NCBI RefSeq assembly: GCF_020639365.1
Contig: NZ_JAINUL010000001.1
Span: 5,749,215-5,813,214 of the forward strand
Reading direction: 5' to 3'
Length of the DNA: 64,000 bases
Source: Streptomyces flavotricini
GTDB taxonomy: Bacteria; Actinomycetota; Actinomycetes; Streptomycetales; Streptomycetaceae
The notes below the pieces were generated by a model that was not told the DNA's origin, did no database searches, and saw only the letters and a program-made list of their open reading frames with translations. The position numbers and the translations under genes are program-made. This document shows, piece by piece, positions 20,713-64,000 of this stretch (position 1 is its first letter; every line of letters starts with the position of its first letter).

Positions 20713-22950
<2,238 letters not shown>

Positions 22951-51612: not shown

Positions 51613-51643
51613 TTGTGGGCTGATTGCCGCTTGCGGTTACTAT
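51613..51643 (+). promoter_or_regulatory. Candidate tig promoter
   Basis: TTGTGG (51613-51618) and TACTAT (51638-51643) are 19 bp apart. A start near 51650 would give a leader of about 100 bases. Confidence 0.45.
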
Positions 51644-57558: not shown

Positions 57559-60207
57559 GTGACCGAGAACACGCAGACACCCAGCAGCCCCGACTCCGAA
57601 CTGCCGACCGCGTACGCTCCGGCCGAGGTAGAGGGGAAGCTCTACGAGCGCTGGGTAGAGCGTGGCTACTTCACGGCCGATCCCGCGAGCGAGAAGCCCG
57701 CGTACACCATCGTCATCCCGCCGCCGAACGTCACCGGCTCCCTGCACCTGGGCCACGCCTTCCAGCACACGCTCATGGACGCCCTGACCCGCCGCAAGCG
57801 CATGCAGGGTTACGAGTCGCTGTGGCTGCCCGGCATGGACCACGCCGGCATCGCCACCCAGAACAAGGTCGAGCAGCAGCTCGCCGAGGAGGGCAAGTCC
57901 CGCCACGACCTGGGCCGCGAGGAGTTCGTCGAGCGCGTCTGGCAGTGGAAGGAAGAGTACGGCGGCAAGATCCTCGGCCAGATGCGCCGCCTCGGCGACG
58001 GCGTCGACTGGTCCCGTGAGCGCTTCACCATGGACGAGGGCCTCTCCAAGGCCGTCCAGACGATCTTCAAGAAGCTCTACGACGACGAGCTGATCTACCG
58101 CGCCGAGCGCATCATCAACTGGTGTCCCCGCTGCCTCACGGCCATCTCCGACATCGAGGTGGAGTACCAGGAGGACGCGGGCGAGCTCGTCTCCATCAAG
58201 TACGGGGAGGGCGAGGACACCCTCGTCGTCGCCACCACCCGCGCCGAGACGATGCTCGGTGACACGGCCGTCGCCGTCCACCCGGACGACGAGCGCTACA
58301 AGCACCTGGTCGGCAAGCTCATCAAGCTGCCGCTCACCGACCGCTCGATCCCGGTCGTCGCGGACACCCACGTCGACCCCGAGTTCGGCACGGGCTGCGT
58401 CAAGGTGACGCCCGCCCACGACCCGAACGACTTCGCCATCGGGCAGCGCCACGGCCTGCCCAACATGACGATCATGGACGAGCACGGCGTCATCACCGTC
58501 CACGGCCCCTTCCTCGGCCTGGACCGGTTCGAGGCCCGGTCGGCGGTCGTCGGCGCCCTGCGCGAGCAGGGCCGCATCGTCGCCGAGAAGCGCCCGTACC
58601 TGCACTCCGTCGGGCACTGCTCCCGCTGCAGCACCACCGTCGAGCCGCGCCTGTCCCTCCAGTGGTGGGTCAAGGTCGAGACCCTCGCCAAGGCCGCCGG
58701 TGACGCGGTCCGCGACGACCGGGTCAAGATCCACCCGAAGGAGATGGAGAAGCGCTACTTCGACTGGGTCGACAACCTCAACGACTGGTGCATCTCGCGC
58801 CAGCTGTGGTGGGGCCACCGCATCCCGGTCTGGTACGGCCCGGACGGCGAGGTCGTCTGCGTCGGACCGGACGACCAGGCGCCGACGGGCGAGGGCTGGA
58901 CCCAGGACACCGACGTCCTCGACACCTGGTTCTCCTCCGGCCTGTGGCCGTTCTCCACGCTCGGCTGGCCGGAGAAGACCCCGGACCTGGAGAAGTTCTA
59001 CTCCACCGACGTCCTGGTCACCGGCCACGACATCATCTTCTTCTGGGTCGCCCGGATGATGATGTTCGGCCTGTACGCCATGGACGGCGAGGTCCCGTTC
59101 AAGACCATCGCCCTGACCGGCCTGGTCCGCGACGAGCGCGGCAAGAAGATGTCGAAGTCCTTCGGCAACGTCGTCGACCCGCTGGACTGGATGGACAAGT
59201 ACGGCTCCGACGCCGTCCGCTTCACCCTGGCCAAGGGCGCCAACCCGGGCACCGACGTGCCGATCGGCGAGGACTGGGTCCAGGCCTCCAGCAAGTTCGC
59301 CAACAAGATCTGGAACGCCACGCGCTTCGCGCTGATGAACGGCGCCACGATCGAGGGCGAGCTGCCGCCGGTCGAGCGGCTGTCCGCCACCGATCGCTGG
59401 ATCCTGTCCCGCCTGAACAAGACGGTCGCTCAGGTCGACGCGTACTACGAGGACTTCCAGTTCTCCAAGCTCAGCGAGGCGCTCTACCACTTCGCGTGGG
59501 ACGAGGTCTTCGACTGGTACGTCGAGCTGTCGAAGACGACGTTCTTCGCGGGCGGCGAGCAGGCCGAGGTCTCCGGCCGGGTGCTGGGCGAGGTCATCGA
59601 CGTCATGCTGCGACTGCTGCACCCGGTGGTCCCGTTCGTCACCGAGACGCTGTGGACCACGCTGACCGGGCGCGAGTCGCTGGTCATCGCCGAGTGGCCC
59701 AAGGCCGTGTCCGTCCCCGGGGCTGACGCCCCGGGCGGCTTCCGTGACGATGCCGCCGAGGCGGAGATCGAGAGCGTCCAGGCCGTCGTCACCGAGGTCC
59801 GCCGGTTCCGCAAGGAGCAGGGCCTCCAGGACGGCCAGAAGGTCCCGGCCCGCCTGGACCTGACCGGTACGGCGCTCGCCGCGCACGAGGCGGCGATGCG
59901 TCAGCTGCTGCGCCTCCAGCCGGAGGGCGAGGGCTTCACGGCCACCGCCACCCTGCCGGTCGCCGGTGCCACGGTCGCGCTCGACCTGTCGGGCACGATC
60001 GACGTGGCCGCCGAGCGCAAGCGGCTCTCCAAAGACCTCGCGGCCGCGGAGAAGGAGAAGCAGCAGGCCGAGGCGAAGCTCGGGAACGAGGCCTTCCTGG
60101 CCAAGGCCCCCGACAACGTCGTGGACAAGATCAAGGGCCGACTGGCCAAGGCCGAGGCGGACATCGCGCGGATCCAGACCCAACTGGACACGCTGCCCGC
60201 CGCGTAA
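57559..60207 (+). CDS. valS: Valyl-tRNA synthetase
   Basis: The 882-residue class I synthetase has the HIGH motif in [15 protein letters not shown] (about 60), the editing domain, KKMSKSFGN (about 530), an anticodon-binding region, and a C-terminal coiled coil ([20 protein letters not shown]). It charges tRNA-Val in the cytoplasm. The length is normal. In many streptomycetes folC follows valS; here a GH26/GT2 cassette follows. Confidence 0.97.
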
Positions 60208-60249
60208 CACGCACCACGCGACAAGCACCATGTAACAAACGGTGAACCA

Positions 60250-60280
60250 TCGGCCCCCGAGCACATGGCCCGGGGGCCGA
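60250..60280 (+). terminator. Terminator of valS
   Basis: TCGGCCCCCG pairs perfectly with CGGGGGCCGA across an 11-base loop, 42 bases beyond the stop. Confidence 0.8.
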
Positions 60281-60284
60281 CGCG

Positions 60285-60290
60285 TAGGGT
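60285..60290 (+). promoter_or_regulatory. Candidate -10 of the GH26/GT2 cassette
   Basis: TAGGGT just after the valS terminator would start a transcript near 60297 with a 69-base leader to GTG 60366. No convincing -35 is seen. Confidence 0.4.
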
Positions 60291-60365
60291 GAATCCGGCC
60301 CCGGAGGTTCGGCACGACCCTCAGGGACCGATGCCTGCCGGCTGTCGACCGAGGGGGGTCTCGGA

Positions 60366-61817
60366 GTGCGGGGTCGTGACGTGCAGACTCGCGGGGTCTT
60401 AGATCCCTTAGATCCCTTAGATCCGTTGAACCCCTCAAAACGCGAGCTGAAGCGCCGCAACCTCCTCCTGGGGGCGGCTGCCACCGCGGCCGCGGGGGGC
60501 GCCCTCGCCGGAGTGGCAGCGTTCAGCACCTCGCGCGCACCGGCCGCCGGCCTCCAGAAGGACCTGCTGTCACGAGACCCCAAGGCCTCCAAGACGGCCC
60601 AGGCCGTGTACCGGCTCCTGGTCGGCCTGGAGGCGGACGCCCGGGCCGGCCGTCGCCGCGGGACCCTCATGGGCCAGCACGCCGAAGTGCACAACGAGCG
60701 GTACAACCCCGAGTACGGCGACCACAGCGGCCCGAAACCTCCGGGTTACTACTACCGCAAACCCCGGGACATCACCGGAAAACTGCCGGCCTTCCTCGAA
60801 CTCGACCTGGGACCCGGATACCAGCAGCAGGGCTGGGGCGTGGGGGAGCCGCGGGACTACTCGCGCGCCGCCTGGCCCGCCCGCCGCGAGTTCTGGACCT
60901 ACACGAACGACGTGGTGGACCTGGCCCTCGGCGTCTGGCACGGACTGCCCCGCGCGGACGACGGCTCGTACAACCCGACCGGCACGGAACGCCTCTGGAA
61001 CGGCACCAAGACCGTGCTCCCGGAGAACGGGGGAGCACCCGCAGGCCTGGTCGGCATGTCGTTCCACCAGCCGTGGCCGGGCAGCCCCGTCAAGAGCTAC
61101 GAGCAGACGCTGCGCCGCAACGCGCCCTCCGCCAAGGACCCCGGCTGGATCGACCGGGTGCTCACTCCCGGTACCGCCGAGCACGCGGCGCTCCTGCTCG
61201 ACCTGTCCTTCCTCGCGGACCACCTCGGCCATCTGGCCGCGCACGACGTCCCCGTACTGCTGCGCCCGTACCACGAGATGAACTCGCTCGGCGCAGAGCA
61301 GAGCTTCTGGTGGGCAGGGCTCGAACCCCGGCAGTACACGGCCCTCTGGGAGCTGCTCCACCACTACCTGGTGGGCTCCCGCGGACTGCACAACCTGATT
61401 TTCGTATGGGCCCCCACAGCCTGGGACGGGGTCCACGGCGGCGAACCCTGGGACTTCTACCCGGGCGGCGAATACGTGGACGTGGTGGGGGTCGACGACT
61501 ACAGCGGAACGCCTGACCGTCCCTTCGACCCGGGCGGCTGGACATCGACCTGGCACCGCGGGCTCGCGGACTACGGAAAGCCGCGCATCCTCGCGGAGTC
61601 CTTCCACGTGCCGCTGGGCGCGGCGCAGCGTACGACCCTCGACCAGGCCCCGTGGGTGCTGTGGACGGTGTGGGGCGACGGGCTCACGGCGAAGAACTCG
61701 GACGCCGATGTGCGCCGGACGTACGACGACCCCAAGACGATCACCGGTGGCCGGGAATCCGGCCCCGCGGGCGTGCAATGGCCGACCTTGCACGACGGAA
61801 CATTCGAAGAGGAGTGA
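60366..61817 (+). CDS. Tat-exported GH26 glycoside hydrolase (beta-mannanase type) with three TTA codons
   Basis: The 483-residue protein starts at GTG 60366 after GAGGGGGG. Residues 12-23 are LDPLDPLDPLNP, encoded by three tandem 9-bp units each starting with TTA, the rare Leu codon read by BldA tRNA. A twin-arginine signal follows (LKRRNLLLGAAATAAAGGAL, about 29-48). The GH26 domain has the acid/base Glu304 in LRPYHEMNSLGA and nucleophile Glu411 in RILAESFHV; WWAGLEPRQYTALW is also typical. It should hydrolyse beta-1,4-mannan or a related glucan outside the cell. It is the first gene of an apparent operon with a membrane protein and a GT2 synthase. A TTG at 60426 would skip the TTA codons but has no ribosome-binding site. 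Confidence 0.9.
   Translation: MRGRDVQTRGVLDPLDPLDPLNPSKRELKRRNLLLGAAATAAAGGALAGVAAFSTSRAPAAGLQKDLLSRDPKASKTAQAVYRLLVGLEADARAGRRRGTLMGQHAEVHNERYNPEYGDHSGPKPPGYYYRKPRDITGKLPAFLELDLGPGYQQQGWGVGEPRDYSRAAWPARREFWTYTNDVVDLALGVWHGLPRADDGSYNPTGTERLWNGTKTVLPENGGAPAGLVGMSFHQPWPGSPVKSYEQTLRRNAPSAKDPGWIDRVLTPGTAEHAALLLDLSFLADHLGHLAAHDVPVLLRPYHEMNSLGAEQSFWWAGLEPRQYTALWELLHHYLVGSRGLHNLIFVWAPTAWDGVHGGEPWDFYPGGEYVDVVGVDDYSGTPDRPFDPGGWTSTWHRGLADYGKPRILAESFHVPLGAAQRTTLDQAPWVLWTVWGDGLTAKNSDADVRRTYDDPKTITGGRESGPAGVQWPTLHDGTFEEE
60399..60425 (+). repeat. Three tandem 9-bp units TTAGATCCC with TTA codons
   Basis: Units start at 60399, 60408 and 60417 and encode LDP-LDP-LDP; the last unit has a G in place of the final C. 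The following LNP (TTGAACCCC) looks like a diverged fourth unit. Confidence 0.92.
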
Positions 61818-61819
61818 AG

Positions 61820-62596
61820 TTGAGCGCGTCAACGCCACGCGCCCACCGTGTGGCCGCCTTCGTGGCCATGGGCTGGGCGGGCATCCTGCTCCTGTGGGCC
61901 CTGTACAACTGCTTCTGGCAGGTCGGCGCCGCCGACTTCCTCCAGGGCATCGTGTACTACGGCACGGGCGACGGCTCCGGAACCGCAGAGACGTTCAACC
62001 TCAACTGGGGTGTCGTCTACGTGGCGGGCGGACTGCTGGTCCTGCGCGGGAACTCCCTCGGGCGGGGCATCATCATCGGCGGCGCCGCCATCGAGGGCTA
62101 CAACCGGGTGCGCAGCCTGTCGGGTGCGCTCTTCGACGACAGGCAGGCCGAGTACTTCACCACGACCGTCCAGGGCGGGCTGAAGCTGGCGACCTTCGCC
62201 GTCGGTGTCTTGGTGACCTGCACCCTCATCGTCCTGCTGCTGCGGGACTTCGCGGTGTACGAAGCGTGGCAGCCGCCGGTGAACCCCTGGACCCAGCAGG
62301 CCAACGAGGCCCGGCTGGCGCAGCAGGTGCCGCAGCAGCAAGCGCCGCAGCCGGCCCACGGGTTCGGGGCACCGCAGGCCTACCCGCCGCTGCCCGGGCC
62401 GCAGTTGCCGCAGACGGGCTACGGGCAGCCGCAGCCCCAGCCCTACCCGCCCCAGCAGCCGCAACCCGGTTACGGGCCGGGCCCGTACGGCAGCCAGCCC
62501 ACCTGGCCGCCGCAGCCCCCCGCACAACAGCCCCCCGCCCAGCAGCCCCCTGACCAGCAGCCCCAGCAGTCGCCGCCGCAGCAGCGACAGCAGTAG
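61820..62596 (+). CDS. Membrane protein with Pro/Gln-rich tail, partner of the GH26/GT2 genes
   Basis: The 258-residue protein starts at TTG 61820, five bases after GAGGAG; GTG 61814, which overlaps the GH26 stop, is the alternative. Three to four helices (about 9-30, 55-70, 73-90, 118-140) are followed by a 110-residue cytoplasmic tail of PQQP/YGQPQPQ repeats that ends QQSPPQQRQQ. I recognise no family. Its place between hydrolase and synthase suggests an accessory of the polysaccharide machine; Pro/Gln-rich tails may bind partner proteins. Confidence 0.82.
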   Translation: MSASTPRAHRVAAFVAMGWAGILLLWALYNCFWQVGAADFLQGIVYYGTGDGSGTAETFNLNWGVVYVAGGLLVLRGNSLGRGIIIGGAAIEGYNRVRSLSGALFDDRQAEYFTTTVQGGLKLATFAVGVLVTCTLIVLLLRDFAVYEAWQPPVNPWTQQANEARLAQQVPQQQAPQPAHGFGAPQAYPPLPGPQLPQTGYGQPQPQPYPPQQPQPGYGPGPYGSQPTWPPQPPAQQPPAQQPPDQQPQQSPPQQRQQ

Positions 62597-62608: not shown

Positions 62609-64000
62609 ATGACCTCTTCCATGACCTCCGCTCCCGTACAAGAGGTCGCGCCCGCCACCCGGCGCGATGCGAAACTGGTGCAGCGCCACGCCGAGTGGAA
62701 GCCCGGCGTGCTCCCCTTCCTGCTGCCCTTCCTGCTCCTCGCCGGCTTCGGCCTGTGGTCGTTCAAGCCGAATCCGACCCCGCTGGGCTGGACCCTGTCC
62801 GTCGTCTGGTCGCTGCCCGGCATAGGAGTCATGGTCGGCCTGCAGGGCGCCCTGCTGATCCGTCGCCGGCTGCGAAAATCGCACGAGATGGTCCCCCCGA
62901 CACCGGTGGACGAGGACTTCCTCATCGTGCTCGTGCCGACCATCGGCCGCCACGACACGTACCCGGCGCTGGAGCGCTCGGTCCTCAGCTACGTGGAGCA
63001 CCTGCCTCCGTACTTCCCGCTCATGCGGGTCGACGTCCTCACGGAGGAGGGCTGTGAGGCGGCCGAGCAGATCGACGACCTGGCCGCGATGAACCCGCTG
63101 ATCCGCGTGGTCACCGTGCCCAAGGCCTACGAGACGGCGAACGGGACCCGGTTCAAGGCCCGCGCCAACCACTACGCGCACGAACTGCGGATCGACGAGG
63201 GCGAAGCCCTGGACGACATCTGGGTGCTGCACATGGACGACGACACCGGGGTCGGCCCCGACACCGCCGCGTCGATGGCCCAGTTCGTCAACCGCCAGCG
63301 GCGGGCGGGCGCCGAGGGCAAGCACATGGCGCAGGGCATCCTCGCCTACCCGCGTGAGAACGCCGTGAACCGCTTCACCTGGCTCGCCGACGCGGTCCGC
63401 CCCGCCGACGACATAGCCCGGTTCCGAGCCCTCACCGGTCTCGGCACCCCGGTCGCCGGTGTGCACGGGGAGCTGCTGCTGCTCCGCGCCTCCATCGAGG
63501 CCACCATCGGCTGGGACTTCGGCCCGAAGGCCATCGTCGAGGACGCGCAGCTGGCGCTGACGTTCTGCCGTACGTACCCCGGCCGCAGCGACTGGTTCAA
63601 CGGTCGCTGCTACGGCGCCTCCCCGGCCACCACGAGGGACTTCGTCAAGCAGCGCGAGCGCTGGGCGTGGGGGCTGGTGGCCCTCTGCTTCAACCGCACG
63701 GTGCCGTTCCGCTACCGCTGGTTCCTGCTGCTCTGCGTGGCGACCTGGGTCTTCGGCCCGCTCCAGCACGTCGCGACCGTGCTGTTCGTGGCCTGGCTCA
63801 TCGGCGACTTCAACACCTCGCCGGTGGCCCAGACCGTCGTGATCATGTGGGCGATCAACTTCGCGTACGTCATCTGGACGTACTGGGAGGGGCTGCGGCT
63901 CAACGCCCTGGTCTCGGCGAACGGCCGGCGGCGTTGGTGGGAGCCGGTCGTCGTACTCGCCCTCATACCGGTGTTCTCCGTGATGGAGGGGCTCGGCGGC
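62609..64000 (+). CDS. GT2 processive glycosyltransferase, egghead (beta-1,4-mannosyltransferase)-like; partial
   Basis: The frame begins at ATG 62609 after AGGA and is still open at the window edge (464 residues). TM helices at about 34-52 and 61-82 precede a GT-A domain: IVLVPTIGRHDTYPAL, metal/UDP site WVLHMDDDTGVG (Asp210-212), catalytic EDAQLAL (Glu311-Asp312) and QRERWAWG (348-355). GVHGELLLLRA and GWDFGPKAIVEDAQLA resemble the Drosophila egghead family. More helices follow (from about 370). It should polymerise or extend a beta-linked sugar chain across the membrane; mannose is inferred from egghead and from the GH26 partner. Confidence 0.9.
   Translation, partial: MTSSMTSAPVQEVAPATRRDAKLVQRHAEWKPGVLPFLLPFLLLAGFGLWSFKPNPTPLGWTLSVVWSLPGIGVMVGLQGALLIRRRLRKSHEMVPPTPVDEDFLIVLVPTIGRHDTYPALERSVLSYVEHLPPYFPLMRVDVLTEEGCEAAEQIDDLAAMNPLIRVVTVPKAYETANGTRFKARANHYAHELRIDEGEALDDIWVLHMDDDTGVGPDTAASMAQFVNRQRRAGAEGKHMAQGILAYPRENAVNRFTWLADAVRPADDIARFRALTGLGTPVAGVHGELLLLRASIEATIGWDFGPKAIVEDAQLALTFCRTYPGRSDWFNGRCYGASPATTRDFVKQRERWAWGLVALCFNRTVPFRYRWFLLLCVATWVFGPLQHVATVLFVAWLIGDFNTSPVAQTVVIMWAINFAYVIWTYWEGLRLNALVSANGRRRWWEPVVVLALIPVFSVMEGLGG

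Follow-up and report, generated by a model that had tools for sequence, protein, structure and literature searches.

The operon and its probable product

The window analysed here is a stretch of 64,000 nucleotides of the Streptomyces flavotricini genome (RefSeq assembly GCF_020639365.1, contig NZ_JAINUL010000001.1, positions 5,749,215 to 5,813,214 of the forward strand), and close to its right end begins an operon in which a GH26 gene (PF02156) is followed by orf2, a GT2 gene (PF13632) and, past the window, a GH113 gene (PF22612), after which come a histidine kinase gene and, later, folC (Table 1). The GH26 gene is 483 codons long when counted from GTG 60366; between this GTG and the upstream stop there is no other possible start. 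The signal of the GH26 product, judged by eye, looks Tat-like (KRRNLLLGAAA). No Pfam family was found for orf2, and the GT2 protein has no PDB sequence match at E 0.01. Among proteins of solved structure, the relatives of the GH26 protein belong to GH26 and for the most part bear the name mannanase, and the relatives of the GH113 protein are beta-1,4-mannanases, so that the GT2 gene adjoins hydrolases of mannanase families, the arrangement expected of a synthase-dependent operon for a beta-mannan-like exopolysaccharide. Because a GH26 protein, a putative membrane protein, a GT2 glycosyltransferase and a GH113 protein are encoded together, the operon probably makes a synthase-type, beta-mannan-like exopolysaccharide, which the hydrolases would trim or release.

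Table 1. Features of the GH26 operon and of the region upstream of it, in window coordinates
Feature	Position	Strand	Evidence or remark
Hairpin rich in G+C, between valS and the operon; probable valS terminator	60251..60279	+	by eye
TAGGGT, candidate -10 element	60285..60290	+	TA..GT in 7/7, TAGGGT in 6/7 aligned loci
Conserved block: Shine-Dalgarno sequence, GTG start and codons 2-6	60341..60383	+	40/43 positions invariant in 6 clade members
Shine-Dalgarno-like GAGGGGGGT	60351..60359	+	duplex energy with the 16S tail -12.5 kcal/mol
GH26 gene, first of the operon	60366..61817	+	Pfam PF02156 E 1.1e-23; best PDB GH26 chain E 9.4e-19
Tandem repeat 3 x CTTAGATCC	60398..60424	+	Tandem Repeats Finder, 3.0 copies, 100% matches
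TTA codon 12	60399..60401	+	aligns with TTA in L070 and L045, TTG in L044 and L047
TTA codon 15	60408..60410	+	unique to the window among 7 orthologues
TTA codon 18	60417..60419	+	unique to the window among 7 orthologues
orf2, putative membrane protein with a P/Q-rich tail (by eye)	61820..62596	+	start TTG 61820 or GTG 61814
GT2 glycosyltransferase	62609..64000, continuing past the window to the equivalent of 64069	+	PF13632 E 1e-22
GH113 gene	equivalent of 64086-65417, in genome stretch L068	+	PF22612 E 2e-27

The start of the GH113 gene (positions 2301-2360 of L068, equivalent to 64086 onward in window numbering) contains a 12-bp in-frame repeat that encodes (V/M)NDE four times, each copy having its own GTG or ATG; five relatives match the GH113 protein only from residues 17-29 onward.

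The CslA/GlxA and MatAB exopolysaccharide loci of Streptomyces combine a synthase with partner enzymes, as does the operon described here. As far as the available portions of their descriptions go, the difference lies in the partners, which here are GH26 and GH113, both of them mannanase families. No title on a Streptomyces locus of the GH26-orf2-GT2-GH113 kind was found in literature searches. The putative wps-1 exopolysaccharide cluster of Actinoplanes missouriensis, also a developing actinomycete, likewise contains GH26 and GT2 genes; it differs in having 11 genes, in being discussed as Wzx/Wzy-dependent and in that the accessible part of the report describes no TTA control for it (PMC13390465).

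Orthologues of the operon

A search of 295 genomes of the genus gave GH26 matches in 77, the only close ones beyond the window's own genome being in G071 (95% identical) and G134 (94%) and the others being at most 63% identical. Scanning the GTDB species genomes yielded 9 loci, and a draw of 100 relatives of G134 gave no further close orthologues. Six orthologues form a clade, namely the window, L070 (G134), L044 (S. roseus ATCC 31245), L045 (Streptomyces sp. NRRL S-244), L046 (Actinobacteria bacterium OV450) and L047 (S. katrae NRRL B-16271), and a seventh, L049 (Streptomyces sp. APSN-46.1), is more distant. The valS gene lies upstream of the operon in all seven, a histidine kinase gene follows the operon in six, L049 being the exception, and folC lies further downstream in the window species, L070, L047 and L049, whereas the stretches read of the other three did not contain it. 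The IQ-TREE tree of the orthologues is (((WIN,(L070,L044)),L045),(L046,L047),L049), WIN being the window, with supports of 63-100, and the FastTree tree differs from it in pairing the window with L044.

In addition, 23 distant homologues were compared, and neither valS nor folC was found beside them within the flanks read; a GT2 gene is near GH26 in 19 of these loci and was not seen in L025-L028, which were read with 1.5 kb flanks. Loci of the same genome were counted once (L003 as L044, L048/L072 as L006, L052 as L005), and L024 (at a contig edge), L029-L031 (weak partial matches) and the weaker matches of the genus search did not enter the counts of homologues.

Three TTA codons in a tandem repeat

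The 5' end of the GH26 gene reads GTG CGG GGT CGT GAC GTG CAG ACT CGC GGG GTC TTA GAT CCC TTA GAT CCC TTA GAT CCG TTG AAC CCC TCA AAA CGC GAG CTG AAG CGC CGC. As a preliminary description of the window had stated, three early TTA codons are clustered here, at codons 12, 15 and 18 of the frame of GTG 60366 and within perfect copies of the repeat unit. The same description had seen no other in-frame TTA in the window, and this is borne out by a list of all TTA on both strands in frames open for at least 80 codons, in which doubtful cases were picked by codon-position GC and no further TTA lies within a likely gene. Of the doubtful cases, the TTA at 51637 is in an ORF whose trigger-factor-like sequence begins downstream, and that at 21753 of the minus strand is two codons upstream of the likely GTG start of a gene whose sequence looks aspartate-semialdehyde-dehydrogenase-like; both are thus just outside likely genes.

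If TTA codons occurred independently at the rate found in an 800-kb sample of the genome (41 in 204,497 called codons), about 0.0003 triples within seven codons would be expected in an assumed 2.5 million codons, and a tandem duplication accounts for the triple better than chance does. The nine-base spacing is rare, not unique, in the S. flavotricini genome (8.86 Mb), where TTA-N6-TTA-N6-TTA has 10 strand-wise matches against 4 for the reversed control. One other instance is an ORF (L055:1345-2274, near 2468443 of contig G000:C1) with in-frame TTA at codons 53, 56 and 59, which has no tandem repeat and for which no Pfam family was found. The matches besides these two are TTAACGGCG/TTAACGCCG palindromic repeats at four places (2221051, 8405214, 8408561 and 8410659 of the same contig), three of them near one end of the contig. 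Several candidates for translated triples were rejected: L059 is in frame, but upstream of the Na/H-exchanger domain of an over-long ORF whose start is probably downstream, L053, although in frame, immediately precedes an ATG that has a likely Shine-Dalgarno sequence, and L057 and L061 look intergenic by eye.

The start codon of the GH26 gene

Both GTG 60366 and GTG 60381 (codon 6) are candidate starts, and either puts all three TTA codons in the translated sequence. The energy of pairing with the 16S tail is lowest at the former (Table 1), -8.4 kcal/mol at GTG 60381 and -0.4 kcal/mol at TTG 60426; of 2000 random sites in the window, 1% reach -11.7 or lower. At called starts elsewhere in the window the values are -8.7 (clpX), -1.7 (valS) and -4.2 (GT2), and since pairing is poor at the called valS and GT2 starts, it is not decisive by itself and is a weak guide here. 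The block that contains the Shine-Dalgarno sequence, GTG 60366 and codons 2-6 is almost invariant in the clade, compared with 12/43 invariant positions just upstream of it in the same six members, and the stretch between codon 6 and the Tat-like core varies in length by species, always in frame.

The preliminary description had allowed for translation starting at TTG 60426 or later, in which case the repeat would belong to an untranslated leader and might be a DNA or RNA binding site. Such a start would agree with the position of the Tat-like core KRRNLLLG, which begins just after this TTG, and with distant homologues, which by eye appear to start near the same point, and weak pairing is compatible with a start in this genome. 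Nevertheless, pairing at TTG 60426 is near zero and falls far behind that at GTG 60366, the codon has no counterpart in the relatives, the GTG block is conserved and the length changes keep the frame. TTG 60426 was rejected as a start on conservation and pairing energy, and we regard a late start as highly improbable; the three TTA codons are very likely translated as part of the N-terminus of the GH26 protein.

Some further observations concern this region. Conservation of the 60341-60383 block includes third positions, and CCGAG and CTCGG could pair, which by eye would place the Shine-Dalgarno sequence in a hairpin loop. One stem pair of the probable valS terminator is G-C in L070, L044 and L045, A-T in L046, L047 and L049, and an A-C mismatch in the window. 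An Rfam search of 60180-60500 up to E 1 gave two matches, both below family cut-offs, and hence no known RNA element; a sub-threshold Ms_IGR-5 match (60245-60345, minus strand, 21 bits against a gathering cut-off of 45, E 0.0059) lies over the valS terminator region.

TTA codons are retained while their sites change

At least one in-frame TTA is present in the GH26 gene of all six clade members, the window included, and thus in six of the seven orthologues, L049 (80% identical and valS-linked) having none. TTA is at codon 11 in L070, at codon 164 in L044, at codons 12 and 72 in L045, at codon 72 in L047 and at codons 41 and 91 in L046 if numbering begins at the conserved GTG (the script placed the start five codons further in, which makes them 36 and 86). 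In the alignment, the junction site in the n-region of the signal peptide has TTA in 3/7 (the window, L070 and L045) and TTG in L044 and L047; the codon-72 site has TTA in 3/7 (L045, L046 and L047) and CTC or CTG in the others; the h-region site has TTA in L046 only and CTC in the others; and the codon-164 site has TTA in L044 only and mostly TTC in the others. TTA is therefore not conserved at the same codon across the seven orthologues, which is not a strict requirement, because low site conservation is the rule according to a published survey (PMC10327506). On either tree, judged by eye, TTA sites were gained and lost on different branches, with at least one TTA in each of the six.

None of the 23 distant GH26 homologues has a TTA codon, and together with L049 this means that the GH26 enzyme itself has no need of TTA control. 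L050 and L051, both outside this set, are also without TTA, and in L023 a TTA precedes the match by 87 codons and falls outside the likely gene. Downstream of GH26, TTA occurs at codon 6 of the GT2 gene in L046 and L047 and at codon 297 of 302 of orf2 in L046, and was not found in the GH113 genes of the orthologues; no copy read of the valS, clpX, folC, histidine kinase or DUF genes contains TTA, the gene sets being incomplete and some copies partial. In S. hygroscopicus (L052), the matched part of a divergent GT2 gene contains a TTA as its codon 15.

Codon usage

The 301 leucine codons of the six GH26 genes comprise 146 CTG, 133 CTC, 12 TTG, 10 TTA and no CTA or CTT, whereas the 23 distant homologues have no TTA, 4 CTA and 12 CTT. 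The 800-kb genome sample has 80 CTA and 374 CTT besides its TTA codons, which fall in 37 of 540 called genes, with the first TTA within 30 codons in 18 of the 37. Genes were called by a simple GC3 script which sometimes takes the wrong strand, so that this share is rough, and the TTA count of the sample includes three in an over-long ORF of L121.

Genes with TTA are 6/6 in the clade and 0/23 among the distant homologues (Fisher test, 2e-6, an optimistic value given relatedness), the corresponding test on codons gives 2e-7 (optimistic given relatedness and a single duplication), and for four distinct aligned TTA sites against the TTA share of the genome sample the value is about 5e-5 to 6e-5. 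The clade sample has only six members, and as these are related to each other, the tests are not independent; a single duplication accounts for three of the 10 TTA codons, and common descent for others.

Alternatively, the TTA codons might have no regulatory value and stem from relaxed codon choice or from AT enrichment in a gene that is weakly expressed. GC3 of GH26 is 0.92 over the seven orthologues and 0.88 in the window, compared with 0.98 for valS, and the share of A in two-fold A/G-ending codons is 0.155 in GH26 and 0.025 in valS, so some excess of A is general; most Streptomyces TTA codons are poorly conserved (PMC10327506), and L049 and the distant homologues do without them. Relaxed choice, however, predicts CTA and CTT first, and neither occurs in the six genes, while their TTA codons fall at four aligned sites plus two repeat copies and the sites at codons 72 and 164 are away from the start. 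Moreover, the histidine kinase gene, with a similar share of A (0.129), has 0 TTA. Predicting the TTA count from TTG and from how often two-fold codons end in A yields 2.35 for the six genes (10 seen) and 3.37 for the distant set (0 seen), the latter indicating that the estimate is rough. We consider it rather unlikely that relaxed codon choice explains these codons.

Proposed bldA control of the GH26 gene and the probable origin of the repeat

TTA, a rare leucine codon in Streptomyces, is read only by tRNA-Leu(UAA), which is developmentally regulated. According to published reports, charged tRNA-Leu(UAA) accumulates late, as does the expression of UUA-containing genes, with exceptions by misreading (PMC4255298; PMC4932002), streptomycete TTA codons are biased toward gene starts (PMC4255298), genomes have 177 TTA ORFs on average, and 92% of TTA ORFs carry a single TTA (PMC10327506). 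Whether bldA and its codon are a true regulatory device is a matter of ongoing debate (PMC3814723).

A tRNA-Leu(TAA) gene was found in the S. flavotricini genome by ARAGORN (L074), and as a DNA query it gave one match in each of 7 genomes; it was used instead of an IUPAC tRNA-Leu pattern, which had no match in the 7 genomes. The GH26 gene thus has what is expected of a bldA-dependent gene, namely in-frame TTA in the presumably translated region, a tRNA-Leu(UAA) gene in the genome and retention of TTA at the level of the gene. The bldA-dependent translation put forward in the preliminary description is partly supported in this way, by TTA codons that are very likely translated, by the tRNA gene and by the presence of TTA throughout the clade; the first gene of the operon is likely to depend on bldA, and the relatives are stronger evidence for this than the repeat.

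The explanation that we favour, with a probability of about 0.7, is that tRNA-Leu(UAA) gates translation of GH26 and that selection prevents the gene from losing its last TTA even as the sites turn over, the junction TTA having been tripled in the window. The GH26 mRNA would be read through only once tRNA-Leu(UAA), the product of bldA, is available, and translation would be blocked during early growth. A start codon of orf2 lies only a few bases from the end of GH26 (throughout the six clade members, the window included, a candidate start is at most 3 nt from the GH26 stop, with AGGAG just before TTG), and ribosomes blocked in GH26 would therefore be expected to restrict translation of orf2 too, and perhaps of later genes; such polarity is plausible from the spacing. 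Selection would retain at least one TTA as its site moves between the junction, the h-region, codon 72 and codon 164, and these shifting sites with constant presence hint that evolution maintains a developmental lock. In the window species, the inherited junction TTA would have been tripled by an in-frame tandem duplication, probably through slippage, in the hypervariable n-region of the Tat-like signal.

The simplest view of the tripling is that slippage, in frame, multiplied an inherited TTA in an n-region that tolerates such changes. We lean slightly toward the view, compatible with bldA control of the gene, that it is neutral, one inherited TTA being sufficient and the extra copies changing little. 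Clade members differ in the number of residues between codon 6 and KRR, which suggests an n-region tolerant of extra residues, L046 has its own GC-rich expansion without TTA, and the 12-bp repeat at the GH113 gene start of the window species means that such repeats arise elsewhere in the same operon. (The L046 expansion is a separate one within the GH26 n-region, at L046:5884-6000 of strain OV450.) Against neutrality, it was reported that in a bldA deletion of S. ghanaensis a moeE5 fusion with two UUA codons was silent while an adpA fusion with one was 15-fold lower but detectable (PMC3814723), so the number of UUA codons may matter; those genes differ otherwise too. It is possible that three codons would give tighter control than one.

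The preliminary description had further suggested that the repeat may expand or contract without changing the frame and so tune the dependency. The 9-bp unit would indeed keep the frame. The CTTAGATCC array is absent from the six other orthologues, all from other species, which have 0 or 1 TTA at the junction, the window species being represented by one genome. That the repeat acts as an evolvable counter, in which slippage adds or removes TTA and thereby sets the amount of charged tRNA-Leu(UAA) needed before the operon is expressed, seems to us quite doubtful. Contingency loci have coding tandem repeats near the gene start, as the GH26 gene does. They differ from it in that, here, a change in copy number of the 9-bp unit leaves the frame intact, and there would therefore be no on/off frameshift, only a change in TTA number.

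The GH26 gene resembles adpA, moeE5 and other TTA genes under bldA control in its rare in-frame TTA, the tRNA-Leu(UAA) gene, its auxiliary function and the early position of the codons. It is unlike them in having three TTA within seven codons in a tandem repeat in the signal n-region, in that its clade shifts the TTA site but keeps TTA present, and in that the target is a probable polysaccharide operon. Three TTA codons in one Streptomyces gene are also found in peuR (PMC10786969) and epn/tmcA (PMC8988807); these are regulators of secondary-metabolite clusters, and no tandem array is described in the accessible parts of those reports. In the available portions of the literature on genes with multiple TTA codons, no case of TTA in a tandem repeat was found.

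Concluding remarks

In this contribution, we described a locus at which TTA is retained at the level of the gene in a small clade despite turnover of its sites, which surveys that treat each site separately could overlook. That individual TTA sites are poorly conserved is already on record (PMC10327506). Since members of the clade carry one, two or three TTA in this gene, dose effects could be studied in naturally occurring alleles. If the repeat does act as a counter, the timing of matrix formation could shift between lineages through repeat number, with the protein left unbroken. More generally, the locus may tie an exopolysaccharide operon to developmental timing.
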